NCBI GenBank assembly: GCA_015490895.1 | Contig: WFWY01000051.1 | Location: 1-42,815, forward strand | DNA: 42,815 nucleotides | Source of the DNA: Thiotrichaceae bacterium | Lineage (GTDB): Bacteria; Pseudomonadota; Gammaproteobacteria; Thiotrichales; Thiotrichaceae | Direction of reading: 5' to 3' | Notes under the pieces: generated by a model | The model's database searches: none | Seen by the model: only the letters and a program-made list of their open reading frames with translations | What the model was told of the DNA's origin: nothing | Position numbers and translations under genes: made by a program | In this document: in pieces, positions 1,377 through 22,930 of the stretch | Layout: every line of letters begins with the position of its first letter | Numbering within the stretch: position 1 is the first letter of the stretch

Positions 1377-1682
1377 TTACGGATAACGGAACTTTAGCGC
1401 TGCATACTCACTGTCCCAGACAACACGTAAAACGCTTTCGCTCTCCCCATCCAGACCCAGTTGCCGAAAAAACTCCAGGGCATGCACAACCCGGTCACCT
1501 TTTGCATTGCGTATCTTCATCAGCAAGCCTCCCGCTCCAGCCTGGTGCACCGGCATTATCACTATATAGGGAGACTTGTCGAGCAAGATCACCGTTTGTA
1601 TTCCGGGGAAATAGGCAGTATACAGCTGGGCACTCAAATACAAATTACCGTTGCGTAATATCACCTGCTGTTCATCAGCCAT
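1377..1682 (-). CDS. Small conserved protein of the hydrogenase cluster, function unknown
   Basis: This 101-residue soluble protein has no cysteine cluster, signal peptide or membrane segment. The sequence reads as a compact alpha/beta fold, with hydrophobic strands around TVILLDKSPYIVIMPV and a Gly-rich turn (AGAGG) before a basic segment MKIRNAKGD. Its start codon overlaps the end of the protease gene upstream by 8 bases, which implies translational coupling to hydrogenase large-subunit maturation. I do not recognise the family. A role as a maturation or assembly accessory is inferred from context only. Confidence 0.72.
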   Translation of the reverse strand: MADEQQVILRNGNLYLSAQLYTAYFPGIQTVILLDKSPYIVIMPVHQAGAGGLLMKIRNAKGDRVVHALEFFRQLGLDGESESVLRVVWDSEYAALKFRYP

Positions 1683-2142
1683 AGGCCTTTATCCGTTGTT
1701 GAATCTGGTTAATCGCCTTGTCAGCCGCAGCCTGCACCACGGAAGACAAGCCCACTCCGAGATCAACCGAAGCCGCTTCGATCAGGTAGACAGTGATATC
1801 ATCCGGGAAATCGGACTGATAGATTTTTTTGCCAGCATATAAAGCATGATCCCAGCGAAAATCATGCAGGTTGTAACCAGGCTCCGGAAGGTTCGCCAGC
1901 ATCTCACCGGGCACAACAAACAGGCTACCGGGTTCTGACTCACTTAAATTGGCATCGACCACAATCAGCGCATCACTACCCCTGGCCTGAAACATGACGT
2001 CCATGCCCGCAGTTCCAGCATCATATACCTCTACGCCCGGATGAGGATGTACCGCAAGCCAGGCTAACAGTGCCTGGGCAATATAAACCCCCACACCGTC
2101 ATCTTGCCGGTTGGGATTACCACAACCAATAACAGATAACAT
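1675..2142 (-). CDS. hupD: Hydrogenase large-subunit maturation endopeptidase (HupD/HybD/HupW type, peptidase M52)
   Basis: This 155-residue cytoplasmic protease is expected to clip the C-terminal extension of HupL after nickel insertion. The family signature GCGNPNRQDDGVGV lies at residues 6-19. Candidate nickel-sensing ligands matching HybD Glu16, Asp62 and His93 are Asp15, Asp63 (in ALIVVDAN) and His93 (in YNLHDF). Length is typical for M52 proteins. The gene is downstream of hupL and the two small Fe-S-like genes, and its 3' end overlaps the next gene by 8 bases. Its substrate is very likely the HupL encoded about 1 kb upstream, which has the matching DSCLVCTVH cleavage context. Cyanobacterial orthologues are called HupW, so the symbol is by family convention. 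Confidence 0.9.
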   Translation of the reverse strand: MLSVIGCGNPNRQDDGVGVYIAQALLAWLAVHPHPGVEVYDAGTAGMDVMFQARGSDALIVVDANLSESEPGSLFVVPGEMLANLPEPGYNLHDFRWDHALYAGKKIYQSDFPDDITVYLIEAASVDLGVGLSSVVQAAADKAINQIQQRIKAYG

Positions 2143-2160: not shown

Positions 2161-2502
2161 TTAAATTCGCCATAAACGACAGGACCACTCAGGCTCGACG
2201 GGTAACATTAATTCTGGCAGTTCGCAAAACTTTCGATGGACTTTATAGTACATACAGGTATCACATGCCTGTGCATCGTCTTCGTCATCGGTGGGAAAAT
2301 AAGGGGTGAGTGTAAAGCCGCCAAGAATCAGCTTGTTTTTATAATCATCCGGTGCCAGTTGCTGTAGCCGGGAAATAATTTCCAGAATCTGCTCGTGCTC
2401 ATAAGCACGCGGTTCAACGACTGTCTCAAGGCCACTTTCCAGAAGTTGCCGCAAATGATGTCTGAGTTTGTCATCATCTTTTATCTGCTGCTGGTCTGTC
2501 AT
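2161..2502 (-). CDS. Small four-cysteine protein, HiPIP-like, copy 2
   Basis: This 113-residue protein is paralogous to its upstream neighbour (2556-2870). The N-terminal 75 residues are helical and acidic. The C-terminal third carries Cys80, Cys83, Cys93 and Cys108 in the spacing C-x2-C-x9-C-x14-C, ending WSCRLWRI. The pattern C-x2-C-x-x-Y, then C-x-L-P, then W-x-C-x-x-W closely recalls the cluster-binding part of high-potential iron-sulfur proteins (C-x2-C, C-x-L-F-P-G-K, G-W-C-S-A-W). A [4Fe-4S] cluster and an electron-transfer role next to the hydrogenase are therefore plausible. Unlike classical HiPIPs it has no Tat signal, so it should be cytoplasmic. A zinc-binding role is the main alternative. 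The upstream AAAGGTG is a usable ribosome binding site. Confidence 0.8.
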   Translation of the reverse strand: MTDQQQIKDDDKLRHHLRQLLESGLETVVEPRAYEHEQILEIISRLQQLAPDDYKNKLILGGFTLTPYFPTDDEDDAQACDTCMYYKVHRKFCELPELMLPVEPEWSCRLWRI

Positions 2503-2555
2503 TGTATTTCACCTTTTAGGAGTCTGCCCCGAGTACGAGTATTCCTGGCACTCCA

Positions 2556-2870
2556 CTAAATCCGCCATAAGCGACACCACCACTCTGCTTCAACAGGTAC
2601 TGCCAGCTCCGGCAGGTCACACCATTTTCGATGCACCAGATAATACATGCACTCCAGGCAGCGCTGTTCATCCTCACCATAAGGCTTGTCGATAAAACCG
2701 GAAATCACCAATTTTTGTTCCAGATCCTGAGGATCAAGCTTTCTCAGGTCTTGCAGGATTAATTCAAACTGGTGATTATCTTCGGGAAATGGCTCGGTTT
2801 GCGTGACAAGACCCTTAGCCATCATTTCGCCAATTTTATCGCGCAGGGCATCATCATCTCTCTTGGTCAC
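2556..2870 (-). CDS. Small four-cysteine protein, HiPIP-like, copy 1
   Basis: This 104-residue protein most likely starts at a GTG codon (2868-2870), preceded by AAGGAG at good spacing. It is the tandem paralogue of the gene that follows. The two share the C-terminal block CMYY-x-VHRK-x-C-x-LPEL and PVE-x-EW-x-CRLWRI, and an N-terminal helix with an L-x-P-x-D turn. Cys71, Cys74, Cys84 and Cys99 give C-x2-C-x9-C-x14-C, compatible with a HiPIP-like [4Fe-4S] site (inference). It lies 123 bases after hupL, within the structural operon. It could be the immediate electron acceptor of HupS, since this locus encodes no cytochrome b subunit. Zinc binding cannot be excluded. Confidence 0.8.
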   Translation of the reverse strand: MTKRDDDALRDKIGEMMAKGLVTQTEPFPEDNHQFELILQDLRKLDPQDLEQKLVISGFIDKPYGEDEQRCLECMYYLVHRKWCDLPELAVPVEAEWWCRLWRI

Positions 2871-2993: not shown

Positions 2994-4592
2994 TCAAGAG
3001 GTTTTAAAGCGGGATAATTCCTTACCGGTTTTGGCATCGTGGGCATGCACCGTACACACCAGACAGGAGTCATAAGAGCGTGCCACATGCCCCACTTCAA
3101 CCGGATCACTGGTATCAGCAATGGGCGTGCCAATCAGCGCCTCCTCGATAGGGCCACGCTCCTCTTCACCCGTACGAGGGCCTACGTTCCAGGTGGTGGG
3201 CGCAATAATCTGGTAGTTTTTGATCTTTCCGCCCTGCACATCAATCCAGTGACACAATGCACCCCGAATCGCTTCAGTCGCACCCCAGCCCTGGCCATCT
3301 TGTTCCTGGGGCTTAATGTAGAAAGGCTCATCCAGACGGAACTCACGCAGACAATGCTCCATTTGACGGTAGATGTACTTAAATTCGTGCATACGCGCAA
3401 AGTGTCTCAGCAACACATTGGCACCACCCATATTTTTATACATATCCAGCAATAAACCGTCTTTATGTTGCCAGTCTTCCATGTGGTCACCCCCATAGAT
3501 CAACTCGCGTGCCAACGGCCCTGCTTCCAGATGGCCATTTTCAGCATGCGCTACCGCCGTCGCCCAGGAGTACTTGTCATCAAAGCTACGTGCATTGTTA
3601 TCAATCGGGTTCGTGGTACGATCAAAAGGATGCACTGCGCCTGGCTCGTCATACCAGGAATGTGTCGTATCCTCACGGGTAAACATCTGATCCATCAATT
3701 TATGGGTGCCGGATGCGCCATCAAACACACCACTTGGCATCTGAACCGCAGCATTACGCCCAGCAATCGTTGGTTTATTGTATTTGTCCTCATGTGGCAG
3801 ATAGCCCCAGGAAACAAACTTGTCCAGACCTTTACCATACTTATCCAGACCAATATCTGTACCCATGCGCCACATCATGCCCAGATCCGAATTGGCATGA
3901 TCCGGGCTTTCATCCAGCCATGCCATAAAATCATCGTAGGTTTGAATTTCTTCATAGCGCTCAATCGAACAACCCAGCCACATGGGTTCAATCCAGTTGG
4001 TACGGAAATGCTCGAGGATAGACCAGGAACGCGTAACATCTGATAGCGTTGGAGAGCACATCACACCCCCTGGCACCATGTAACTGGAGTGCGGCCATTG
4101 CCCACCCAGCATGGCATAAATTTCAACAGGACGACCAGAAATGGTGACACCTGCTTCATAGTTAGCCCCTGTAAAGGGCGACCAACGCTTGACAGCTTCC
4201 TCATAAAACGGACTGTTCTGATAGTTTTTATTGACCATGTCGATCATAAACAGACCGTAATGATGACGGGGTAAGCTTTGTAAACTTTCCGCAAGCTGTC
4301 CGAGGTTACGCGCAATAATACCATTGCGCGGGACTTCCGTACCCCAGGCAGTATCCAGCGCCCAGGCAGCGCAGGTTAAATGTGATGCGCCACAGATACC
4401 ACAGGCACGTGGTGTCACGACCAGTCCGGCCTGTGGATCCTTGTCTCTTAAAATCACTTCAAAACCACGAAAAAGCTCCGCAGATGTCCAGGCATTGACC
4501 ACAACGCCATCCTGTATATCGACGCGGACGTCCAAATCACCTTCTACACGCCCTACCGGAGAAATATCCAGTGTCTGTACTTGTGCTGACAT
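2994..4592 (-). CDS. hupL: [NiFe]-hydrogenase large subunit, group 2a-like uptake hydrogenase
   Basis: This 532-residue catalytic subunit splits H2 at a Ni-Fe(CN)2CO centre. The N-terminal L1 motif is RACGICGASH with nickel ligands Cys64 and Cys67. The C-terminal L2 motif is DSCLVCTVH with Cys510, Cys513 and His516. It is followed by a 16-residue tail (AHDAKTGKEL and on) that the maturation protease would remove after His516. DSC instead of the common DPC, together with the tail sequence, is what I recall from cyanobacterial HupL and related group 2a enzymes. The start is supported by AAGGAG upstream, and the gene is 17 bases downstream of hupS. A cytoplasmic or membrane-associated location is expected because the partner subunit has no Tat signal. 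Confidence 0.97.
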   Translation of the reverse strand: MSAQVQTLDISPVGRVEGDLDVRVDIQDGVVVNAWTSAELFRGFEVILRDKDPQAGLVVTPRACGICGASHLTCAAWALDTAWGTEVPRNGIIARNLGQLAESLQSLPRHHYGLFMIDMVNKNYQNSPFYEEAVKRWSPFTGANYEAGVTISGRPVEIYAMLGGQWPHSSYMVPGGVMCSPTLSDVTRSWSILEHFRTNWIEPMWLGCSIERYEEIQTYDDFMAWLDESPDHANSDLGMMWRMGTDIGLDKYGKGLDKFVSWGYLPHEDKYNKPTIAGRNAAVQMPSGVFDGASGTHKLMDQMFTREDTTHSWYDEPGAVHPFDRTTNPIDNNARSFDDKYSWATAVAHAENGHLEAGPLARELIYGGDHMEDWQHKDGLLLDMYKNMGGANVLLRHFARMHEFKYIYRQMEHCLREFRLDEPFYIKPQEQDGQGWGATEAIRGALCHWIDVQGGKIKNYQIIAPTTWNVGPRTGEEERGPIEEALIGTPIADTSDPVEVGHVARSYDSCLVCTVHAHDAKTGKELSRFKTS

Positions 4593-4609: not shown

Positions 4610-5572
4610 TTAAACAACGAAGATATCTTCTTCTGCCCAGGCAGGCATGGCTGCTTTTGCCGCGCCGGTGAGCTTGATATAGCCTTTCTTGTTCACGCCA
4701 TTGGGTAAATCCTTGGGAACCCCCATCACGGTTTGCGTCTTGAACACCGTACCAGGAGCAAGATCAAAGAAAGGAAATTCTGGTTCGGTACAACCCAGAC
4801 AGGGCATACCCGCCCGTGTTTTTGAAGAAACCCGGTTCCACAAAATCCGGTTACAGGGGGAATGGGTCATCGGGCCACGACAACCCAGATCATAGAACAA
4901 ACACCCTTTACGTTGTCCAAACTCGGTGGTCGAAACTTTATAGGCAAAATGCATATTCCGGGTACAACCCGTTTGTGTAAAACTCTGGAAGAACGTCCTG
5001 GGACGCTGAAACTCATCCAGTGTCAGGGAACCCGCATTACCCGTTGCAACAGCGACCAGAATCTGTGTCACCCAGTCAGGATGTGCAGGACAGCCCGGAA
5101 TATTAATCACTGGCAAACCGGATTTGGCTCTAAAACCTGCCCCCAGAAAGCCGCCATTCTCACGCTTCAGGAACTGCAAACCCTGAGAATCGGAAGGGTT
5201 GGGGGCAGTTGCAGGAATACCCCCCCAGGTAGCACAATCGCCCAGCGCTACTACAATATCAGCAGCATCACTCAACTCTCGCACCCATTCTTTCATCGGA
5301 CGTTCACAAAAACGGTTCCATTCGCCGGTACCGTTCGGTGCATTCACCACCGACCCTTCAAAGACAAAAATATCCAGCTTGGTAGCACCGGATACGCAGT
5401 CTTGCAGAATCTGTTTTACATTATCACCCAGCTCCACACCGAGCGAAGGTTGCCAAAGAACATTGATTCCGAAATCTGTCACCAGATCGCAGGCACTAGG
5501 TTCCTCGGCATTCAAAAAGGACATGGTGTTGCCAGAACAAGCACCACCTTGAAGCCATAGTAAATTGGCCAT
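4610..5572 (-). CDS. hupS: [NiFe]-hydrogenase small subunit, group 2a-like, no Tat signal
   Basis: This 320-residue electron-relay subunit begins MANLLWLQGGACSGNTMSFL without a twin-arginine leader, as in cytoplasmic group 2a enzymes. Candidate iron-sulfur ligands are Cys12, Cys113 (GDCATWGG) and Cys161 (PGCPAHP) for the proximal cluster; Cys203/His208, Cys224 and Cys231 for the distal; and Cys240, Cys258 and Cys261 for the medial. The proximal CxxC of group 1 enzymes is reduced to one Cys (ACSGN). In the mycobacterial homologue Huc all three clusters are reported as [3Fe-4S], so unusual clusters are likely here too. A strong AGGAGG site precedes the ATG. It is first in its operon, behind a sigma-54-type promoter. 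Confidence 0.97.
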   Translation of the reverse strand: MANLLWLQGGACSGNTMSFLNAEEPSACDLVTDFGINVLWQPSLGVELGDNVKQILQDCVSGATKLDIFVFEGSVVNAPNGTGEWNRFCERPMKEWVRELSDAADIVVALGDCATWGGIPATAPNPSDSQGLQFLKRENGGFLGAGFRAKSGLPVINIPGCPAHPDWVTQILVAVATGNAGSLTLDEFQRPRTFFQSFTQTGCTRNMHFAYKVSTTEFGQRKGCLFYDLGCRGPMTHSPCNRILWNRVSSKTRAGMPCLGCTEPEFPFFDLAPGTVFKTQTVMGVPKDLPNGVNKKGYIKLTGAAKAAMPAWAEEDIFVV

Positions 5573-5677: not shown

Positions 5678-5693
5678 TGCAAAATTCATGCCA
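5678..5693 (-). promoter_or_regulatory. Sigma-54 (RpoN) promoter of hupS operon
   Basis: On the minus strand the sequence is TGGCAT-GAATT-TTGCA, which matches the -24/-12 consensus TGGCAC-N5-TTGCA at all but one position. It lies about 105 bases upstream of the hupS ATG and points at it. A transcript would start near 5667. The presence of a sigma-54-dependent activator gene 1.7 kb away makes this functionally coherent. Confidence 0.8.
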
Positions 5694-5946: not shown

Positions 5947-6342
5947 ATGAAACCCCAGTCTACTCGTATTATTCGTGACATCATCAGACATTATCCACAG
6001 ATAAAGTTTGCTATTGTCTTTGGATCTTTGGCAACCGATACACAACAGGCAGACAGCGATATTGATCTAGCCGTGCAAACAGAACCCACTTTGAATGTCA
6101 GTCTGAAAAAACAACTCATTGAGGAAATAGCATTAAAACTGGGCAGGCCTGTTGATTTGATTGACCTCAACAAAACAGGGCAACCATTACTGGGGCAAAT
6201 ATTAACTAATGGCAAACGAATAACAGGAAGTGATACTCGCTATGCCAGACTTATTACCAGAAACTTGCTGGATAGAGCTGATTTTCTGCCCTACCGGAAC
6301 CGGATACTAGAAGAGCGCAGGCAGGCATGGATAGGGATGTAG
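5947..6342 (+). CDS. mntA: MntA-like nucleotidyltransferase antitoxin
   Basis: This 131-residue minimal nucleotidyltransferase has VFGSLATDTQQADSDIDLAV at residues 24-43, the G-S-x10-D-x-D signature (Gly26, Ser27, Asp38, Asp40). A third acidic residue is in VDLIDL (Asp70 or Asp73). In characterised MntA-HepT (type VII) systems this enzyme transfers AMP to a tyrosine of the HEPN toxin and silences it. The gene overlaps the toxin gene by 16 bases. It stands between the divergent hupS promoter and a mobile-element copy, with solo element ends close by. This looks like an insertion into the hydrogenase locus. Confidence 0.9.
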   Translation: MKPQSTRIIRDIIRHYPQIKFAIVFGSLATDTQQADSDIDLAVQTEPTLNVSLKKQLIEEIALKLGRPVDLIDLNKTGQPLLGQILTNGKRITGSDTRYARLITRNLLDRADFLPYRNRILEERRQAWIGM

Positions 6343-6749
6343 TGACAGAAAAGCTGGAATCTTTACGGCGCTGTATCAAAAGAATCGAAGACAAGCGTCC
6401 AGAAAGCCTGGAATTGTTCGTTGATGATCTGGATATTCAGGATATTATTGTTCTCAACCTGACCAGAGCCATCCAGACCTGTGTTGATATTGGCGCACAT
6501 CTCATTGCAAACAGTGAGGCAAAGCCGCCCGCAACAATGGGAGAAACCTTTGATATCCTCGCTACTGTGGGAGTGATCGATACTGCAACAGCACTAAAAA
6601 TGAAAAAAGCCGTTGGCTTTCGCAATCTCGCCGTACACGGATATGGAAAAATCAATTTTTCTATTGTTTATTCCATTATCACAGAACAAATTGAAGACTT
6701 TCAACAGTTTGCAAGATTCATCACTACAGCACTTAATGACAAAGAATAG
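6327..6749 (+). CDS. hepT: HepT-like HEPN ribonuclease toxin (DUF86)
   Basis: This 140-residue all-helical HEPN protein has the catalytic motif RNLAVHGY at residues 99-106, i.e. R-x4-H-x-Y. Arg99 and His104 would be the RNase residues and Tyr106 the tyrosine that MntA-type partners AMPylate. It starts inside the 3' end of the antitoxin gene, so the two are translationally coupled. Role (stress or phage defence, or element maintenance) is by family. The catalytic residues look intact, so there is no sign of decay. Confidence 0.9.
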   Translation: MDRDVVTEKLESLRRCIKRIEDKRPESLELFVDDLDIQDIIVLNLTRAIQTCVDIGAHLIANSEAKPPATMGETFDILATVGVIDTATALKMKKAVGFRNLAVHGYGKINFSIVYSIITEQIEDFQQFARFITTALNDKE

Positions 6750-6908
6750 CCGCGAGTACAGTATTCGCCAATTACGATTAATAATCTGGCGGCCTAAACC
6801 CTTGATAACGGTGTTATCATTCCTCCCCATAGCTCCGCTATGACTCGCCATGATGACTTGTTCTCAAGGGGCTTATCCCCGCATCCCCGCCAGAGTTATT
6901 AGCCTTAA

Positions 6909-7069
6909 GGAGACTCTGATCAAGCCTGAGTGGAATTTTTCGAATGATAGAATTGCTCAGTTTTTACTTGAAAATGGCGCTAATCGTCACTCTATTAGGG
7001 AGATTTTTAAGCAAAAAATGGGCGATTCTAGCTTCGAGAAAACCGCTCACGACTTTATTCAGAGCCCCC
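6909..7069. repeat. Type A miniature inverted-repeat element (161 bp)
   Basis: The left end is GGAGACTCTGATCAAG and the right end is TTCAGAGCCCCC with a small change. Perfect TTAA duplications flank it (6905-6908 and 7070-7073). The interior is nearly identical to 173-332, including GGCGATTCTAGCTTCGAG. It lies between the hepT gene and the zinc-ribbon gene downstream of the regulator. The 159 bases before it (6750-6908) contain no gene I can support. Confidence 0.9.
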
Positions 7070-7098: not shown

Positions 7099-7356
7099 TC
7101 ATCCATTCCGGTTCCCACACTGCGGGCATTCGCATTCACCGACAAATCCAAACCAGATACCTTTGCAGCGACTACACCAATGGCCTTTTAATCCAGGTTG
7201 TGACTCATCTCCTTTTTGTCGCGAGAGCCTGGACAAGCCCAGTCGTTTAAAGCCACCTCTGGATTGTCTGGGAGCAGTCCTGGATTGTGGAAAAGGAACA
7301 ACTGCCTGACGCGATGATGATCTACTGGTGTCTGGTGAATCTTTACCCGCACTCAT
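7099..7356 (-). CDS. Small zinc-ribbon protein coupled to the sigma-54 activator
   Basis: This 85-residue protein has a basic, Ser/Arg-rich, probably disordered N-terminus (residues 1-58). A C-terminal cysteine knuckle has Cys61, Cys64, Cys75, Cys77 and Cys80 (C-x2-C-x10-C-x-C-x2-C, ending CPQCGNRNG). Its ATG overlaps the stop codon of the regulator gene in an ATGA arrangement, strong evidence that it is translated. The knuckle resembles rubredoxin- or zinc-ribbon-type metal sites. A regulatory or metal-sensing accessory role is suggested only by the coupling. I do not recognise a named family. Confidence 0.68.
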   Translation of the reverse strand: MSAGKDSPDTSRSSSRQAVVPFPQSRTAPRQSRGGFKRLGLSRLSRQKGDESQPGLKGHWCSRCKGIWFGFVGECECPQCGNRNG

Positions 7357-8813
7357 CCCTGCACTCCTGCCACTACGTCAGCATGAATACCGTAGCGCTT
7401 GATCTTGTTCGACAGACCCACGCGGGAAAGCCCCAGTTCACGAGCGGTCTGGCTCTGGTTCCAGCGACAACGCTGCAGCGTTTTGGAGATAATCTTGATT
7501 TCCATTTGCTCAATTTTTTCTTTTAGCGTCATACCGTCCAGCGTTAGTGTTTCTACGGTTTCAGTGGGTTTAGCTTTCAATGAGCGGATAGGTTCGGAAA
7601 GATCTTCCGGGCTCACAAAACTGCCATTATCAGTCATGGCAACCATGCGCTTGATTTCATTCTCCAGCTCGCGCACATTACCGGGCCAGTTGTGGAGCTG
7701 AAACTGCTTAATCACATCCGGAGCCACACCAAGGATTTTACGCCCAATGCTGTGAGCATAGCGTTTGGCCAGGTATTCAGTCAGCACTTCGATATCATCC
7801 GGGCGTTCACTAAGTGGCGGGATATTAAGCTGGAATCCATTCAGGCGATAATACAGGTCTTCCCGAAACTTTCCTTCCTGAATTAACTGGGTGAGCGGCT
7901 GGTTGGTTGCTGCAATCACACGCACATCGCAATGTATAATTTTGTCACTGCCCAGCGGCTTGACCTCACCTTCCTGCAAAAAACGTAACAGGCTGACCTG
8001 AAAAGTGGGTGAGACATCACCAATTTCATCCAGAAAAACTGTACCACCGTCAGCCGCAGGCAATAACCCCAGCCGGTCACTGACCGCACCCGTAAACGCA
8101 CCTTTTTTGTGCCCAAACAATTCCGAATGTAGCAGTTCATCTGACATACCACCACAGTTATGCACCATCAGGGGTTGACGGCTACGATCACTATTATGAT
8201 GAATGGCGCGTGCCATCAATTCCTTGCCGGTACCTGTTGGCCCCTGTATCAGAATCGGCAGATTGGTTTTCGATGCTTTTTTTGCCATGTTGCAAAGTGA
8301 TGCCATGCTGCGACTGCAATACACCAGCTTGTCAAACTGGTGACTGTCCTCTATCGAGCTTTCTATCTGTTCGTTATATTTTTTCAGCACATCCTCAGCA
8401 ATTTTAAATTCACGGTTCAGGTGCCGATAGCGATAGCCAAGCTCGCGGTTCTCCAGCGAACGCCGCACCATTAATTCCACCAGCTCCACTGGCCAGACTT
8501 CCGGCAGGAACTGATAGACCGCAGCCTTGTTGATCGCCTCGGTCATTTCCTCGCGACTGAGACTGCCAGCCAGCACACGTACTACTTCGGGATGCGAGAT
8601 ACGCGCCCGGTTTAAAAAAGTCAGCGCATCAAACCCCGTTTGCTGGTGCTGGGCAAGTATCAGGTCAACAGGTTCCTCATCCAGTAATTTTAGTGCCTGA
8701 CCGACATCATTACAGGAACAGGTGCTGTAATGCATGCCCAGATACTCGCTAAGCTCCTGAGTTGGTGCGGGCAAGTAGCCACAAATCAGGATAGATGACA
8801 TGCCATTATTCAT
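7353..8813 (-). CDS. NtrC-family sigma-54-dependent activator with degenerate receiver (HupR/HoxA-like)
   Basis: This is a 486-residue protein. Residues 6-120 form a CheY-like receiver in which the phosphoacceptor position reads [10 protein letters not shown], so Gln55 replaces the usual Asp. Residues 160-400 are the AAA+ domain, with Walker A GPTGTGKE (191-198), the sigma-54-contacting GAFTGA (239-243 region) and Walker [10 protein letters not shown] (258-266). A Fis-type helix-turn-helix ([20 protein letters not shown]) is near the C-terminus. It most likely activates the hup operons. With Gln at the acceptor site it may act without phosphorylation or respond by another route. It diverges from the accessory/hyp operon and is followed by a coupled zinc-ribbon gene. 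Confidence 0.93.
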
Positions 8814-8989: not shown

Positions 8990-9006
8990 TATTCAGGAAT
9001 ACGGTG

Positions 9007-10035
9007 ATGCAAACCAGTCAACTTTCCAACCTCCCTGACCATGAGTTCAATCAGGCCATGCAGATGATTGAGGCAGAAGATATTCGTGTTGAGGACAAGG
9101 TAGAAATGCTGATGCAGATTGGTATGGGCATTCAGCAAAAACCTAAAAACCCGCAACAGCTGATCAATGCAGTGCAACTCTATGATGCAGCTCTGAAACT
9201 CTGCCCCAAACACGAAACCCTGATTATTGCACGCCTGGAAGCCAGAAAAGGAACCGCGTACCAGGCTATTCCGGACAATAGCCCGGACTATTTACTCAAG
9301 GCACGGGCACAATATGAAGTAGCTTTGCCTACCCTGAATGAACAGGGTCTAGCGGAAGAAGTAGCAGAAGTAGAAATGAATCTGGGACTGGTTCTGCAAA
9401 CACTGGCAAACTTTAACAAAGTACCTGTGACGCAGTGTATTACGGCCTATCAGCGATCCTTAAAGGTGTTTGACCGGCATAAGTACCCGACCGAATTCGC
9501 CATCTTGCATAACAACCTGGCCACGGCCTTTCTCTCAATTCCAATGCAGGATGAACGTGCCAAAATGCGTGAAGCACTGGCCGTACAGTCGTTTGAAGCG
9601 GCTCTTGAGGTCATCAATCTCATTGATCATCCCTCTGAATACGCCATGTTACAAAATAACCTGGGTAATGCCCTGCAATATGTATCCAGCAGCCATCCGG
9701 TAGAGAATAACCTGCGCGCACTGGATGCCTACGATGAGGCGCTAAAGGTGCGTAATGCGGATGATACGCCACTGGAGTATGCCAATACTATCGCCAATAA
9801 AGCGAACTGCTTGCGTAATCTTCCGGATGATATGGAAAAGTCAGATACTGGCAATACCGGACACCTGCTGCAAGCTCGACAGCTATACCGGGAAGCCCAG
9901 CAGATTTTTAACCAATATGGTGAGACAGCAAAGGCCGATGCCATTCAGGAAATGCTGCAGGAAGTCGAGCAGGATCTAGGTACCGGACAGGCTGGCTCAC
10001 GCAATGGCAAGGGTTTTGGAGAAACACGCATTTAA
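9007..10035 (+). CDS. TPR-repeat protein of the hydrogenase accessory module
   Basis: This is a soluble 342-residue protein made of helical repeats: after an N-terminal helical segment (1-50), TPR-like units run from about residue 55 to 325. Examples include INAVQLYDAALKLCP, CITAYQRSLKVF, AVQSFEAALEVINL and ALDAYDEALKV. Conserved NNL-x-x-A turns recur (LHNNLATAF, LQNNLGNALQ). There are no catalytic motifs. An ATG at 9007 with AGGA eight bases upstream is preferred over the adjacent GTG at 9004. Similar TPR genes accompany group 2a hydrogenases with NHL and Rieske/NifU-type genes (recalled association). A scaffold or assembly role is likely but unproven. It is first in the long plus-strand operon. 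Confidence 0.85.
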   Translation: MQTSQLSNLPDHEFNQAMQMIEAEDIRVEDKVEMLMQIGMGIQQKPKNPQQLINAVQLYDAALKLCPKHETLIIARLEARKGTAYQAIPDNSPDYLLKARAQYEVALPTLNEQGLAEEVAEVEMNLGLVLQTLANFNKVPVTQCITAYQRSLKVFDRHKYPTEFAILHNNLATAFLSIPMQDERAKMREALAVQSFEAALEVINLIDHPSEYAMLQNNLGNALQYVSSSHPVENNLRALDAYDEALKVRNADDTPLEYANTIANKANCLRNLPDDMEKSDTGNTGHLLQARQLYREAQQIFNQYGETAKADAIQEMLQEVEQDLGTGQAGSRNGKGFGETRI

Positions 10036-10065: not shown

Positions 10066-10251
10066 ATGACCTATCTGGGATACATAGCACTGGCACTGGT
10101 CGCCAGCCTTATTGGCGGTGCCATTGGTGGCATGATAGTGGGTGGCAAACACCTGGGTAATGAACTGGCAGCCATGATGGGGGGATTTTACGGCCCCATG
10201 GCAGCAGTTCCTGGCGCCATTCTCGCCCTGATTATTTTAGCACTGATCTAG
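10066..10251 (+). CDS. Tiny glycine-rich membrane protein 1
   Basis: This 61-residue protein is almost entirely hydrophobic. Helix 1 (about residues 4-26) is packed with small residues (SLIGGAIGGMIVGG). A short polar loop follows (KHLGNE), then helix 2 (about 40-61, ending ALIILALI). The GxxxG-like spacing favours helix packing or oligomerisation. AGGAG lies five bases before the ATG, and the next gene starts seven bases after the stop. It may help anchor the hydrogenase or its electron-transfer partners at the membrane, since no cytochrome b gene is present. That role is inferred from context. Confidence 0.75.
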   Translation: MTYLGYIALALVASLIGGAIGGMIVGGKHLGNELAAMMGGFYGPMAAVPGAILALIILALI

Positions 10252-10258
10252 GAGAAAG

Positions 10259-10486
10259 ATGATGATAGATATGTTTATGAACTCAGCCAGCCTGTTTGTA
10301 AAAGGTAAGCTGTTTCAGGATTATAAATCGGTGTTTATCAGGTTGTTGATCGGTATAGTCATTACCGCAGTAATCGGTGTTGCTCTGGCCAGTCTGGGCA
10401 CAGGTATGTGGATAGCAATAGCCATTGCATCCCTCATTGGCGGTGCACTACAGCCTTATTTGTTCAGACATTTAAAGTACCGGTAA
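10259..10486 (+). CDS. Tiny membrane protein 2
   Basis: This 75-residue protein has an amphipathic N-terminal stretch (FMNSASLFVKGKLFQDYKSV) and two hydrophobic helices (about residues 27-45 and 48-66). It ends with the basic tail FRHLKYR, which suggests a cytoplasmic C-terminus. AGGAG overlaps the stop of the previous gene, indicating tight coupling. The start could be the first or second of two adjacent ATGs. It forms a pair with the preceding micro-membrane protein between TPR and NifU-Rieske genes. No named family is recognised. Membrane anchoring of the H2-oxidation module is a reasonable but untested idea. Confidence 0.75.
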   Translation: MMIDMFMNSASLFVKGKLFQDYKSVFIRLLIGIVITAVIGVALASLGTGMWIAIAIASLIGGALQPYLFRHLKYR

Positions 10487-10488
10487 GC

Positions 10489-11400
10489 ATGCATATGGGT
10501 GATCCAGCCAATATTATCGAACAGCCTGTTCAGCAACCCGATACAGACCTGAATACCTTGCTAAAAGATATTACTGCGCTGGAGGCACTCGTCAATGACT
10601 GGGATGAGCAACAGCAACAGACCGTCCACGCGCTGCAACGAGCCAGTGATGCGCTACATAAGGAAGCGATTAGCCGACTGATCAAGGCAGTAAAACAGGT
10701 GCCCGAGGCGATGACTGCACTAAAAAGTATCGTGGGTGATGAGGTTGTCTATGCCGTCTTGCGGCACCTGGAGGTTATCCGACCCTCGTTACATGAGCGC
10801 GTTGAGCAGGCACTGGAATCTGTCAGACCCTATCTTGAATCACATGGCGGCAATGTGGAGCTGGTCAACATCAGTCCTCCAGATACTGTGACCATCCGCC
10901 TGCTGGGTGCCTGTGACGGCTGCCCGGCTTCCGGCCTGACACTCAGTGAGGGGGTAGAAAAGGCCATTCATCAGTATTGCCCCGAAATCACCACCATTGA
11001 AAAAGCAAAGGGAGGCATGAGCGCAAAACCCGTCAGCAACACCACAGATGGAGTGCCGGTACATTTTGTCAGCCCCTTTGCCAATAGCGCGGATGCAGGC
11101 TGGGAGTATGCCGCCCTGCTGCAAGACATCCCCGAGAAAAATATCAAGGTACTAACCGTTGCGGGTAATGAAATACTGCTAAGTCGCTTCGCTAATAAGG
11201 TAACCTGTTACCAGAATGCCTGCGCTCATCTGGGGATGCCACTGGATATGGGGGAAGTGCGCGACGGCATTCTGATCTGTCCGCATCATGCCTTCGAATA
11301 TTCACTGGAATCCGGTGAATGTCTGACTGCCCCCGAAGTCCAGCTGCAAACCCATGCCGTACGGGTGATCGGCGATAAAGTGGAGATCAAGTTCTTATGA
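10489..11400 (+). CDS. NifU-C-terminal-like / Rieske [2Fe-2S] fusion protein of the hydrogenase module
   Basis: This 303-residue protein has three parts. Residues 1-105 are helical. Residues 105-170 form a NifU C-terminal-like scaffold domain with CDGC (Cys142, Cys145) in LLGACDGCPASGLTL. Residues 188-303 are a Rieske ferredoxin domain with CAH (Cys245, His247) and CPHH (Cys264, His267), i.e. C-x-H ... C-x2-H. It could hold or donate an Fe-S cluster and carry electrons from the hydrogenase. Homologous Rieske and NifU-like genes occur in group 2a loci such as Huc (recalled). The start chosen is ATG 10489, two bases after the previous stop; ATG 10495 is also possible. The reading frame extends further upstream, but only as overlap with the previous gene. 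Confidence 0.9.
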   Translation: MHMGDPANIIEQPVQQPDTDLNTLLKDITALEALVNDWDEQQQQTVHALQRASDALHKEAISRLIKAVKQVPEAMTALKSIVGDEVVYAVLRHLEVIRPSLHERVEQALESVRPYLESHGGNVELVNISPPDTVTIRLLGACDGCPASGLTLSEGVEKAIHQYCPEITTIEKAKGGMSAKPVSNTTDGVPVHFVSPFANSADAGWEYAALLQDIPEKNIKVLTVAGNEILLSRFANKVTCYQNACAHLGMPLDMGEVRDGILICPHHAFEYSLESGECLTAPEVQLQTHAVRVIGDKVEIKFL

Positions 11401-12629
11401 GCGTGCAACAGGTCACATTGAAAGTCACACCAGACCCCAGCTTGCGGGTTACTGAAGCAACCATGGTGCCGCATGTCCCCTTACTGGATGCAGAGCCGTT
11501 TGCCGTGCTGGGGGCACCACGTCAACCCGGCATGGCAAGTATCGGCGTTAGCCCGGATGCACAGACCTGTTTCGGGCCACGTGGTGCAGCATTGATGGCC
11601 GAAAATGGCCCACTCTGGGTATGTGATACCGGACACCACCGCTTGCTGGGCTGGCAACAACTCCCCAATGACGACCAAACGCCTGCAGACTGGGTAATTG
11701 GACAAACCGGCATGCACAACGAAGGTCGCAATGGTAAGCAAGCCGTTAGTGCCCATAGTGTCAATGTTCCCACGGGTATTTGCCGGCTTGAACACGACGG
11801 AAAAACGGGCATGGCCATCGCTGATGCCTGGAATCATCGCGTATTAATCTGGGACTCCCTGCCGGAAGCTCACAATGTCCCGGCTGATCGCGTACTGGGG
11901 CAGGCAGACTTTACCTCAGGCGAGGCCAACCGTGGCCGCACCGAGGCCAGCGAAAACAGCATGCACTGGCCTTATGGTGTGTCCTGGCAGAACGACCATT
12001 TACTGGTTGCCGATTCTGAAAACCGGCGTGTCCTGATCTGGGAGGGTTTACCCGAGACCGGACAACCGCCCGATACTGTGCTGGGACAGCGGGATTTTAC
12101 CTGTCGCGATGAAAATGCGGGAGCGGATCCCAGTGCCATGAGTATGCGCTGGCCTCATGGCATCGCACTCTGGCGGGGGCGGCTGTGTGTCTCGGATGCG
12201 GGCAATAATCGCATTATGATCTGGAACGATGGCATTCCACAGCGCAATGGCGCACCCTGCGACCTGGTATTGGGTCAGGCAACAGATACACTGGTCGATC
12301 ATAACCAGTCGCTTTACTGGCCACGCGCCAATAGCCTGAATATGCCTTATGCCATAACCGCAATGCAGGACTGGCTATTAGTGGCAGATACTGCCAATTC
12401 ACGCTTACTCGGCTGGCACATTGATGATATTACCAGCAATACCCCCAAACCGGCTCCCGCGCGTGCATTAAGCGGGCAGTTAAATTTTCACGAAAAAGGT
12501 GACAATCGCTGGCAAGCCCCCATGGCAGACTCTTTCTGCTGGCCCTATGGTCTGCAAGCCTGCGGCAATACCGTTGCGGTTGCTGATTCGGGCAATAACC
12601 GCGTTAGCCTGTGGAGACTTGCAGTATGA
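11397..12629 (+). CDS. NHL-repeat beta-propeller protein
   Basis: This is a 410-residue protein of repeated blades. The recurring units are a strand pattern like LLVADSENRRVLIWEGLP, a PYGV/PHGI turn, and V-L-G-Q-x-D/x-F phrases (VIGQTGM, VLGQADF, VLGQRDF, VLGQATD). Some six blades are visible between residues about 30 and 408. There is no signal peptide, so it is cytoplasmic. Such propellers act as protein- or ligand-interaction platforms, and NHL genes are recurrent companions of group 2a hydrogenases. The start codon overlaps the previous stop (ATGA) and its own stop overlaps the hypF start the same way, so the three are translationally chained. Exact function is unknown. Confidence 0.88.
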   Translation: MSVQQVTLKVTPDPSLRVTEATMVPHVPLLDAEPFAVLGAPRQPGMASIGVSPDAQTCFGPRGAALMAENGPLWVCDTGHHRLLGWQQLPNDDQTPADWVIGQTGMHNEGRNGKQAVSAHSVNVPTGICRLEHDGKTGMAIADAWNHRVLIWDSLPEAHNVPADRVLGQADFTSGEANRGRTEASENSMHWPYGVSWQNDHLLVADSENRRVLIWEGLPETGQPPDTVLGQRDFTCRDENAGADPSAMSMRWPHGIALWRGRLCVSDAGNNRIMIWNDGIPQRNGAPCDLVLGQATDTLVDHNQSLYWPRANSLNMPYAITAMQDWLLVADTANSRLLGWHIDDITSNTPKPAPARALSGQLNFHEKGDNRWQAPMADSFCWPYGLQACGNTVAVADSGNNRVSLWRLAV

Positions 12630-15387: not shown

Positions 15388-16107
15388 ATGAGTGATACGG
15401 CAACCCAATTAAAAGCACTCTACCCTTTTTTGCATGGCGAAAAAAAGAATCGTGCTGCAGAACAAGATGCCCTGCTGGAATCGGTCAGACAAAAAGCAAA
15501 CCATAGTGTCAGTGTCAAGCAACACTTCTTTACCGACAATGCCGAGACCATCGTGGCAGCAGCACAAGCCATTGCACAGGTCTACCTGAATCACGGGCGC
15601 ATGTTATCCATGGGCAATGGCGGCTCAAGCTGCGATGCCTCACATTTTGCAGTGGAATTTCAGCATCCAGTGACAGCGGGACGACCAGCATTGCCGGCAT
15701 TTAATCTGGTGATGGATACAGCCATGCTCAGTGCCGTAGGTAATGATGTGGGTATGCAGCATATCTTTGTACGACAACTGGAAGCCCACGCCAGCAAAGG
15801 TGACGGGCTAATCGGCTTTTCTACCAGTGGCAATTCTGCCAATTTGCTGGCTGCCTATCGCAAAGCAAAAGACAGGGGGCTGGTAACACTGGGACTGGCA
15901 GGGAGTGATGGTGGCGATATGCTCTCCAGTGGCCTGGTTGACCACTGCCTGGTAGTACCAACCGATTCCATCCACCGGGTGCAGGAGGTGCATGTGGCGA
16001 CTTATCATATTCTCTGGGATCTGGTGCATACCCTGCTGGCTGACCAGCGCGGCAACCTGGCGAGTGATCATCAACACAGGGAGGGGCCGCATGAAATATG
16101 TCGATGA
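15388..16107 (+). CDS. SIS-domain protein, GmhA-like (phosphoheptose-isomerase family), inside hyp operon
   Basis: This 239-residue protein has the GmhA-type sugar-phosphate pocket: MGNGGSSCDASHFAVE (residues 75-90), FSTSGNSANLL in the middle, and the C-terminal VQEVHVATYHI containing the His/Glu of the isomerase site. An extra N-terminal segment of about 25 residues precedes the SIS fold. The start is set at ATG 15388; the frame runs upstream only through hypC. Its position between hypC and hypD, overlapping hypD by 17 bases, shows co-expression with hydrogenase maturation. SIS proteins have been seen in other group 2a/hyp loci (recalled). Whether it makes heptose phosphate or serves cofactor assembly is unknown. 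No LPS heptose genes are near. Confidence 0.88.
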   Translation: MSDTATQLKALYPFLHGEKKNRAAEQDALLESVRQKANHSVSVKQHFFTDNAETIVAAAQAIAQVYLNHGRMLSMGNGGSSCDASHFAVEFQHPVTAGRPALPAFNLVMDTAMLSAVGNDVGMQHIFVRQLEAHASKGDGLIGFSTSGNSANLLAAYRKAKDRGLVTLGLAGSDGGDMLSSGLVDHCLVVPTDSIHRVQEVHVATYHILWDLVHTLLADQRGNLASDHQHREGPHEICR

Positions 16108-20462: not shown

Positions 20463-21617
20463 TCACACGAAAGAAAGTGTCTCATATTGTGTCCATGGGT
20501 TCTCGCCTCCCCACCAGTTTTCGGCGACTGTTGCATAGAGTGAATGAAAATCCGTTGTGTATTGAATGTCTCCCTCACTATCCAGATTATTCAGGTCAGG
20601 ACTGTCTCCATAGAGCTTTCCTCCTTTAAGCTTGCCACCCATCACCAGTTGCGGTGCGGAGGTTCCATGATCCGTGCCACCACTCAGATTCTCTTTTAGA
20701 CTACGGCCAAACTCGGAATAGGTCATCACCAGAACATTATCCCATTGCTTAAAAACTTTCATCGCATTGGCAAAGGCATCCAGCCCCTTTGCCAGATAAG
20801 CAAGCTGATTCTTGTGTGTGATGGCCTGTCCGGCATGGGTATCAAACCCGGAGAGTGTCACTTTATACACGGTCGCATCAGCACCACCTACAATCATTTT
20901 TGCAACCGACTTCAAGTCATTATTGAAATTGCTCCGGTGTGGAAAAAAGCGCTCAATATGGCGCACCCGGATACTACGTTCCAACAACTGCCTGGCACCA
21001 TGTACCTGTTGCTGCACATCAATAATATGCGCCAGTGACGGGTTGCTCGTTTCAACATCTGCCTGTGAGACCAGTTCCGCCTGTTTCACAAATGTACGCG
21101 GATCATGCATGGCAACAGCCCTGCACTGCTTGCCCTGCATCGGCCCCAGACCAGATCCGACGACGACACCATGCAGCCCCTGCTTCTTCTCCGGCAGTAC
21201 CAGCGACAACCAGCCATCCGCACGCTGCTGATCGGAACTGGAGGCCGTTTCCCAGATATCTTTGGAACGGAAATGTGAGCGATCCGGCTTGGGGTAGCCA
21301 ACATTCTGAACCCAGCTACATTGGCCTTCATCCCACCAGGACTTCAAAGGCTCCAGAGAGGTATGCATACCTACTTCTTCACCAATATCAATCACCTTTT
21401 TCTGTGCCAGTGTTGGCCGTGCATCTTCATATTTCTTACGCTGTTTCAGGGGAATGAGTGTGTTCAGGCCATCGTTACCCCCAGCCAGTTCAACCAGCAA
21501 CAGAATACGCTTTCCCGTGGGTTCTGCCTTTGCAGATAGCGCCAGTTCAGGCATTATACCTGCCATTCCGGCAAAGGGAGTCAGCGCCGCCAATTTTGCA
21601 AATTCACGTCTATTCAT
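20463..21617 (-). CDS. DUF1501 exported protein
   Basis: This 384-residue protein has a short twin-arginine-like leader (MNRREFAKLAAL, then a hydrophobic stretch to about residue 30), suggesting Tat export. The DUF1501 hallmarks are LVELAGGNDGLNTLIP (residues 41-56), GYPKPDRSHFRS, SGFDTHAGQ, YSEFGRSLKEN and GGTDHGTSAPQLVMG. These resemble the metal site of alkaline-phosphatase/sulfatase-like enzymes, but the family's reaction is not established. It is immediately downstream of the DUF1800 gene (8-base gap), the usual pairing for these families. No link to hydrogenase is evident beyond position. Confidence 0.92.
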   Translation of the reverse strand: MNRREFAKLAALTPFAGMAGIMPELALSAKAEPTGKRILLLVELAGGNDGLNTLIPLKQRKKYEDARPTLAQKKVIDIGEEVGMHTSLEPLKSWWDEGQCSWVQNVGYPKPDRSHFRSKDIWETASSSDQQRADGWLSLVLPEKKQGLHGVVVGSGLGPMQGKQCRAVAMHDPRTFVKQAELVSQADVETSNPSLAHIIDVQQQVHGARQLLERSIRVRHIERFFPHRSNFNNDLKSVAKMIVGGADATVYKVTLSGFDTHAGQAITHKNQLAYLAKGLDAFANAMKVFKQWDNVLVMTYSEFGRSLKENLSGGTDHGTSAPQLVMGGKLKGGKLYGDSPDLNNLDSEGDIQYTTDFHSLYATVAENWWGGENPWTQYETLSFV

Positions 21618-21625
21618 GGCTACCT

Positions 21626-22930
21626 CTAGGTTAGTTGATACACGGGATCCAGTGCCAGGGCGCGCACCAGACGTGCCTTGCCAGGGGTCTCGGGAAGGGA
21701 GCTAACTGGCTGTTGCGCCAATAACCACTGCTGGTATTGCTCAGGCGGTGCGTCAGGGTATCCAGCACCTTTATTCACCCGGGCATTCATATTGCCACCT
21801 GTGAGCTTGTTAATCATGGAAGAGCGTACCATCACTGTTTCTGCATCAATCCAGTCCATGCCTGTTTTCCAGCCTTTGACATTGGCAGGGTCAAACAAAT
21901 CCTGACCGAGTAGTCTGAAAATACCCTCTACATCTTTATCACTAAACATACTTGCAGTTCTCCAGGGCACCATACGCAAGCTGCCGACAACCAGATCTGC
22001 CGGTGATTTGGTTAAAGCCCCTCGGTTTTCCTCCGACCAGAAAGCATCACTGTTGAAGACGCTACCCAGTAGCGTCCTGATATTATAGCGGGAATGCCTG
22101 AATGTGTTTGCCCAGCTCTGAATGGTACGTGAATCCGGCTCTGCATCATTGATAAACAGGCTCCAGAATTTTTCGGCGATGGTTCTGGCGGTACGCGGGT
22201 GCTGCAACAGGACACGAATAACATCGTCGCCATTTTTGACCCATTTTCCCAACACCTTTTTAGGTGCGTTATCGTGCTCTTCCTTATTAAAAGCAAAGCG
22301 CTCCTGATACCGGTCAACAGACCAGCCAGTAAAGGCTCTGGCAACATTTTTTACATCATGCTCTGAATAATACCCATGACCCAGCGTAAACAGTTCAAGC
22401 AATTCCCTGGCAAAATTTTCATTGGGATGACGTTTTTCATTCAGCATACCATCGAGGTAAACCAGCATTGCCGGGTCTTTCGCCACACCTTTTAACAGGG
22501 TCGAAAAACTCCCCAGGGCATGACGACGTAGCAGCATATGTTGCTTGTAGAGCAGGCTGGGCTGCTCTATCTTGTCCAGTGAGGATGTGAAATGCCCATG
22601 CCAGAACAAGGTTAACTTTTCCACCAGGGGAGAAGGGGTTCTTCTCATATGGGCAATCCACCAGCGCTTGAGACGCCGCCCTTCCAGCGTGGTCATCGCA
22701 TGCATCTTCATTTTATGCCGGGGATTTTTTGACTCATGCATATTCATGCGAATATGCCAGGCGGTCATTTTCGGGGGTGCAGGAGGGTTATAAACCTGGG
22801 GATGCAAGACAATATTAACGGCCTGTTGCCGTGTACGCCCTTCCAGTTTTTTAATCAATTTCCACTCTGCACCCAGTCCTGTCCTCGCCACCAGGTGTCT
22901 CGCTTCCGCGAAATTTAAAGATTGTTCCAT
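21626..22930 (-). CDS. DUF1800 family protein
   Basis: This 434-residue largely helical protein shows the DUF1800 features: EARHLVARTGLG (residues 9-20), RRWWIAHM-type and LTLFWHGHFTSS segments, LNEKRHPNENFARELLELFTLGHG, and DVKNVARAFTGW. The N-terminus is short and has no obvious signal peptide, which is common for this family although its DUF1501 partner is exported. It forms a two-gene operon with the following DUF1501 gene. Function is unknown. Confidence 0.92.
   Translation of the reverse strand: MEQSLNFAEARHLVARTGLGAEWKLIKKLEGRTRQQAVNIVLHPQVYNPPAPPKMTAWHIRMNMHESKNPRHKMKMHAMTTLEGRRLKRWWIAHMRRTPSPLVEKLTLFWHGHFTSSLDKIEQPSLLYKQHMLLRRHALGSFSTLLKGVAKDPAMLVYLDGMLNEKRHPNENFARELLELFTLGHGYYSEHDVKNVARAFTGWSVDRYQERFAFNKEEHDNAPKKVLGKWVKNGDDVIRVLLQHPRTARTIAEKFWSLFINDAEPDSRTIQSWANTFRHSRYNIRTLLGSVFNSDAFWSEENRGALTKSPADLVVGSLRMVPWRTASMFSDKDVEGIFRLLGQDLFDPANVKGWKTGMDWIDAETVMVRSSMINKLTGGNMNARVNKGAGYPDAPPEQYQQWLLAQQPVSSLPETPGKARLVRALALDPVYQLT

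Follow-up and report, generated by a model that had tools for sequence, protein, structure and literature searches.

For a group 2a [NiFe]-hydrogenase without a cytochrome b, the route of electrons into respiration is known from structures in one case only, the mycobacterial enzyme Huc. Nitrifiers, methanotrophs, rhizobia and iron/sulfur oxidisers are among the organisms with cytoplasmic hydrogenases of this group. The hup locus of a Thiotrichaceae bacterium raises the same question (assembly GCA_015490895.1, contig WFWY01000051.1, positions 1 to 42,815 of the forward strand; this whole stretch of 42,815 nt is called the window below). Here, two small paralogous proteins, which we call A and B, are encoded after hupL, and a sequence-only reading had likened them to high-potential iron-sulfur proteins (HiPIPs) and suggested that they could be cytoplasmic Fe-S carriers for HupS. 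We find that proposal plausible, and in A and B we see good candidates for the connection that is missing between a group 2a hydrogenase and respiration. If they are carriers, they would constitute a small, defined and testable redox partner, as well as HiPIP-fold proteins working in the cytoplasm.

One such gene has already been proposed as a putative HiPIP electron link. A multi-omics study of Acidithiobacillus ferrooxidans describes DN052_04130, located in the hup operon and seen in the proteome, as a putative HiPIP that together with a Rieske protein was proposed as the link to ubiquinone (PMC7735108). Judging by locus-tag order, with HybD presumably next, DN052_04130 is probably the orthologue of A and DN052_04125 that of B. 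That hup operon is also of group 2a and an electron link has already been proposed for it, but the paper names one protein and covers neither the pair nor its fold, its range and the contrast with HucM. Among the papers searched, we found no description of the A/B pair, its range, fold support or the HucM contrast, and the passages searched of PMC6883350 (on HucE), PMC7784904 (on group 2a distribution) and PMC12319191 (on methanotrophs) contain no mention of a HiPIP at this position.

The hydrogenase operon and the A/B gene pair

The minus strand of the window carries the following features:

1377..1682, minus strand: protein X, conserved, 101 aa, after the protease gene; present in nearly all A/B loci
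1675..2142, minus strand: HycI/HupD-type maturation protease (PF01750, E 2.7e-13; TIGR00072 above cut-off)
2161..2502, minus strand: protein B, paralogue of A (ATG start, 113 aa; W-S-C-R-L-W)
2556..2870, minus strand: protein A, HiPIP-like four-Cys protein (GTG start, 104 aa), the first gene after hupL
2994..4592, minus strand: HupL/HucL, group 2a [NiFe]-hydrogenase large subunit (PF00374; best solved relative Huc 7uus/7utd, E 1e-181)
4610..5572, minus strand: HupS/HucS small subunit, without Tat signal (best solved relative HucS 7uur/7utd, E 1e-155)
5679..5693, minus strand: possible sigma-54 promoter TGGCATGAATTTTGC, about 107 bases before hupS, with one mismatch to the consensus (consensus matches across the whole window are hardly above chance)
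7353..8813, minus strand: NtrC/HupR-type sigma-54 activator (PF00158)

HupS and HupL are closest by a wide margin to Huc of Mycobacterium smegmatis (HucS, HucL, HucM; PMC10017518), far above other solved hydrogenases, and are therefore assigned to group 2a, as the sequence-only reading had it. The absence of a Tat signal and the HucE, NHL and hyp genes nearby agree with this assignment. That reading was also correct in several further respects. Both open reading frames lie at the span given for them, on the minus strand, and the layout C-x2-C-x9-C-x14-C is exact in each, together with a common CMYY, C-[DE]-L-P and W-x-C-R-L-W. In neither protein can a hydrophobic or twin-Arg leader be made out, in accordance with the claimed lack of an export signal. 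The gene order is hupL, A, B, the HycI-type protease gene and the 101-aa ORF, with 123 bases between hupL and A (hupL end 2994, A start 2870), which bears out the position directly after hupL. Among the operon genes examined, which are a part of the window's ORFs, no cytochrome b gene was recognised. For protein X no match was found in Pfam, NCBIfam or PDB, and it may have relatives in Runella and Hymenobacter.

The plus strand holds an extended hyp operon, in which the features below are followed by hyp genes:

9004..10035, plus strand: TPR-like protein, placed alike in group 2a operons with and without A/B (compare alr0691 of Nostoc, PMC2408588)
10066..10251, plus strand: M1, small two-helix membrane protein (NCBIfam asr0689_fam, 61.1 bits against a cut-off of 95)
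10259..10486, plus strand: M2, small two-helix membrane protein in the position of asr0690, conserved beside M1
10408..11400, plus strand: NifU-Rieske fusion of HucE type (PF01106, 1e-23; PF00355, 2e-14); the first GTG is probably not its true start, which would lie further downstream, near 10456
11397..12629, plus strand: NHL-repeat protein (PF01436)

The extended hyp operon of Nostoc (asr0689-alr0693; PMC2408588) has the same TPR, two small membrane protein, NifU-like and NHL genes; unlike in the window, the A/B pair is not reported there. M1 and M2 (10066-10486, plus strand) are present in nearly all A/B loci and also in cyanobacterial hup regions, and M1 is kept in nearly all A/B loci long enough to reach its position. 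The idea that both form a module specific to A/B was dropped in view of the asr0689 match and the Nostoc papers, according to which M1 at least is shared with cyanobacteria. The putative Fe-S proteins HucE and HhyE (PMC6883350) are likewise encoded with group 2a or 1h hydrogenases without cytochrome b, but they consist of NifU plus Rieske or rubredoxin-like domains, unlike a HiPIP; a HucE type is also present in the window.

The position of A and B between hupL and the protease gene is a classic accessory position. In this sense, they might be maturation or assembly factors for HupS/HupL, for example donating clusters or shielding against O2 as the chaperones HoxR or HupGHI of other uptake hydrogenases do, and handle no respiratory electrons. 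Even dye-linked activity requires HucE, for which its authors allow an assembly role (PMC6883350). However, where group 2a operons lack A/B, HucE, NHL, TPR and Hyp proteins suffice to produce an identical enzyme core. Moreover, A and B match none of the known chaperone profiles, and the rubredoxin profile gave no match at E 10, both proteins having only one C-x2-C. Two further points, discussed below, also speak against a role in maturation: the HiPIP fold belongs to electron carriers, and near its presumed distal cluster HupS shows clade-specific differences. On the other side, the quinone-site residues of HupS are conserved, and an extra carrier is thus not strictly needed. Overall, we regard maturation factors as an unlikely description of A and B.

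Resemblance to high-potential iron-sulfur proteins

HiPIPs are normally located outside the cytoplasm. A and B have in common with them (PF01355) a C-x2-C-...-C-...-W-x-C-x2-W-like layout, aromatic surroundings of the cysteines and the predicted fold. They differ from classical HiPIPs by the missing export signal, a long N-terminal helix, a Pfam score below the cut-off, a Trp that replaces the Gly before the last Cys, and their link to a cytoplasmic hydrogenase. Since they fall short of the cut-off and lack the signature Gly and the export signal, A and B are not filed under PF01355.

At the sequence level the resemblance is faint and consistently points to HiPIPs. A scores 13.5 bits against PF01355, below the cut-off of 22, while for B no PF01355 match was reported. 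Across 101 members of the family PF01355 is the most frequent Pfam match, with 10 of the 101 matching, always below the cut-off (best E 0.085). The order of the cysteines is that of aligned true HiPIPs, namely C-x2-C, a gap of similar length, and then x13 there versus x14 here. We built an HMM from twelve true HiPIPs and tested it against 3000 shuffles with Cys fixed, of which only 2 reached the score of A and 9 that of B. Since A and B outscore nearly all of these shuffles, the residues around the cysteines are HiPIP-like beyond the cysteines alone. The HiPIP signature, which we take to be C-x(6,9)-[LIVM]-x3-G-[YW]-C-x2-[FYW], fits 12 of 12 true HiPIPs, and A and B fail its strict form; with the Gly relaxed, 82 of the 86 A proteins fit, and B fits only when the Gly and the aromatic residue are both relaxed. 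Profile-profile alignment with hhalign against true HiPIPs was weak (17 columns aligned, probability 23%), and phmmer and profile searches of the PDB returned no sequence relatives of A or B.

The predicted structures point in the same direction. The AlphaFold2 models have a pLDDT of 92.8 for A and 95.3 for B, the alignment for B leaving out the rows from annotated plasmid records. With Foldseek, the top match of the B model was the HiPIP 3h31 (prob 0.77, E 0.11), and for A Foldseek alone listed only unrelated chains. In a second look with VIA, all 10 matches listed for A were HiPIPs (Z 4.8-5.5, 52-63 residues), and so were all 9 listed for B (Z 4.0-5.3), with no competing folds among the matches listed; the VIA library consisted of Foldseek's own candidates only, a Z of about 5 is moderate (below 8), and AlphaFold may already know the HiPIP fold. 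At the level of fold and motif, the HiPIP likeness put forward from the letters of the DNA is upheld: A and B look like HiPIPs and probably also function as such.

Four cysteines can also bind zinc, and A and B may instead be zinc proteins with a purely structural task, serving HupSL as a scaffold or anchor in the manner of HucM and doing no redox work. They are found where HucM is missing, and two members of the family match a zf-LITAF-like model, with a best E of 0.1. This is no confident match to a zinc family, of the kind that would speak against the HiPIP likeness, and both the aromatic-rich surroundings of the cysteines and the predicted fold point to HiPIP. We consider a purely structural zinc role very unlikely.

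Conservation, ancestry and distribution of A and B

A GTDB genome scan gave 80 of 163 confirmed loci, and the family set comprised 158 members (86 A-type and 72 B-type) in 85 loci. The four cysteines are kept in all 158 relatives, except for one B-type row with an ambiguous base, and the spacing C-x2-C-x9-C-x14-C is present in 86 of 86 A-type relatives. Being common to these 86 relatives, with the four Cys kept in the B-type as well, the spacing is not a product of chance. The residues flanking the cysteines distinguish the two types: the 86 A-type proteins have R-C-x-E-C and W-W-C-R-L-W, so that the residue before the second Cys is E in A and T in B, and the last Cys is preceded by W-W in A and by W-S in B (W-W-C versus W-S-C). 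In the tree, a single branch with a support of 100/100 separates A from B, indicating an old duplication that has been kept in two forms.

All loci but one lie within a hydrogenase operon. A stands directly before B, on the same strand, in each of the 72 loci that hold both; A is alone in 13 of the 85 loci and B alone in none, a comparison in which B-only loci may be under-sampled since the locus search started from A. The A-only loci require at least five changes of state on the tree, a condition that would have arisen most simply by repeated loss of B. A protein search of plasmids gave 12 records, each with two places, and the operon order was the same in the four records opened (4/4); the annotation of the A and B genes there goes no further than 'hypothetical'. 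We also searched 398 evenly sampled genomes of the phylum for A/B and HupL. A/B are present in exactly four of them, namely those with a HupL that shares 78% identity or more with that of the window, and in 0 of the 28 genomes with a HupL up to 42% identical.

The sequence-only reading had also suggested that two copies mean either a heterodimer or two redox potentials. As a refinement of the carrier reading, A and B could form a fixed heterodimer or could be two carriers of different potential acting in series. The pair is old, it is retained in 72 of 85 loci with constant order, and the differences around the cysteines (W-W-C and E before the second Cys in A, W-S-C and T in B) fit such a division. 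Nevertheless, the 13 A-only loci, with their repeated changes of state, show that A can work without B there, and they weaken the heterodimer as a general rule. We judge this refinement to be somewhat unlikely.

A few loci depart from the usual arrangement. One holds an A-A-B triplet in which a divergent second A-type copy lies between A and B (L010:10007-11035). In Methylocapsa acidiphila, a lone A gene has a phoU-like gene as its neighbour and lies apart from hydrogenase genes (L078:9950-10291), and a further A gene is found in its hup operon (L071). Two B copies (L044:10380-10577 and L080:2328-2531) are on a very long branch (2.95), with a shortened N terminus and W-Y-C-D-L-W-R-V.

HucM and the electron exit of HupS

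In Huc, the HucM stalk brings menaquinone to HucS (PMC10017518), and a HucM-like subunit is also part of the archaeal group 2e enzyme (PMC11018855). Group 2a plasmid operons of Mycobacterium, Thermus and Sulfobacillus have a DUF1641/HucM-like gene close to hucS and are without A/B. Mycobacterial Huc uses the stalk, and no A/B genes are present in the group 2a operon on the mycobacterial plasmid that we examined. Conversely, a search for DUF1641/HucM gave no match in the window genome or in 50 further A/B genomes (51 in total). The group 2a operons of Runella and Hymenobacter contain neither A/B nor a recognised HucM.

The HupS proteins of the A/B clade share a set of residues present in none of six other HupS compared. 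Of the 11 fully invariant clade-specific residues, six lie between positions 203 and 233 (expected 1.1), sites which share ancestry and are not independent. Presumably this segment holds the distal-cluster cysteines, as we take from general knowledge of [NiFe] small subunits. The clustering of clade-specific residues near the presumed distal cluster would fit a remodelled electron exit.

We had first expected that the clade would have lost the quinone-site residues of HucS, and this was ruled out: the equivalents of K212, Y229 and Y301, the menaquinone-contacting residues of HucS (PMC10017518), are invariant in 76 of 76 HupS of the A/B clade. This conservation speaks against a simple replacement, and direct quinone reduction by HupS may therefore persist.

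Taking these observations together, we think it fairly likely that A and B are cytoplasmic HiPIP-fold [4Fe-4S] carriers that relay HupS electrons toward the quinone pool or a redox partner. Each protein would, in this model, have a HiPIP-like fold, bind one [4Fe-4S] cluster through the four invariant cysteines and stay in the cytoplasm. Group 2a HupS, the presumed donor, would hand single electrons from its distal cluster to A/B, which would pass them on. A would be the core carrier that accepts the electrons, helped by B as a specialised and dispensable second copy, and the next acceptor might be quinone, a Rieske protein or something else. We infer the cluster type, the potential, the contact with HupS, the direction of electron flow and the final acceptor alike.

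A wider and more tentative reading is that, in a large group 2a clade spanning Pseudomonadota, Nitrospirota, Acidobacteriota and others, the quinone-delivery stalk HucM was exchanged for a cytoplasmic two-protein HiPIP-fold relay, so that in the A/B clade A and B would do the coupling job that the HucM stalk does in Mycobacterium Huc. We hold this to be possible, with less than even confidence. If true, there would be a second way in which atmospheric-type H2 oxidation is coupled to respiration.

Other features of the window

Between hupS and its regulator gene, a nucleotidyltransferase/HepT-like pair (PF18765, PF01934) lies at 5947-6749 on the plus strand, likely an MNT/HEPN toxin-antitoxin module. 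A direct repeat of 155 bases, 90% identical, occurs at 168-322 and 6904-7058, 6.7 kb apart; it brackets the hup operon and the toxin-antitoxin pair and is a possible trace of a mobile or recombined block. Further along, hypC and hypD enclose a SIS-domain (GmhA-like) gene at 15388-16107 on the plus strand, an arrangement also seen in other group 2a operons, and a DUF1501/DUF1800 gene pair is located at 20463-22930 on the minus strand, beyond the hyp operon.
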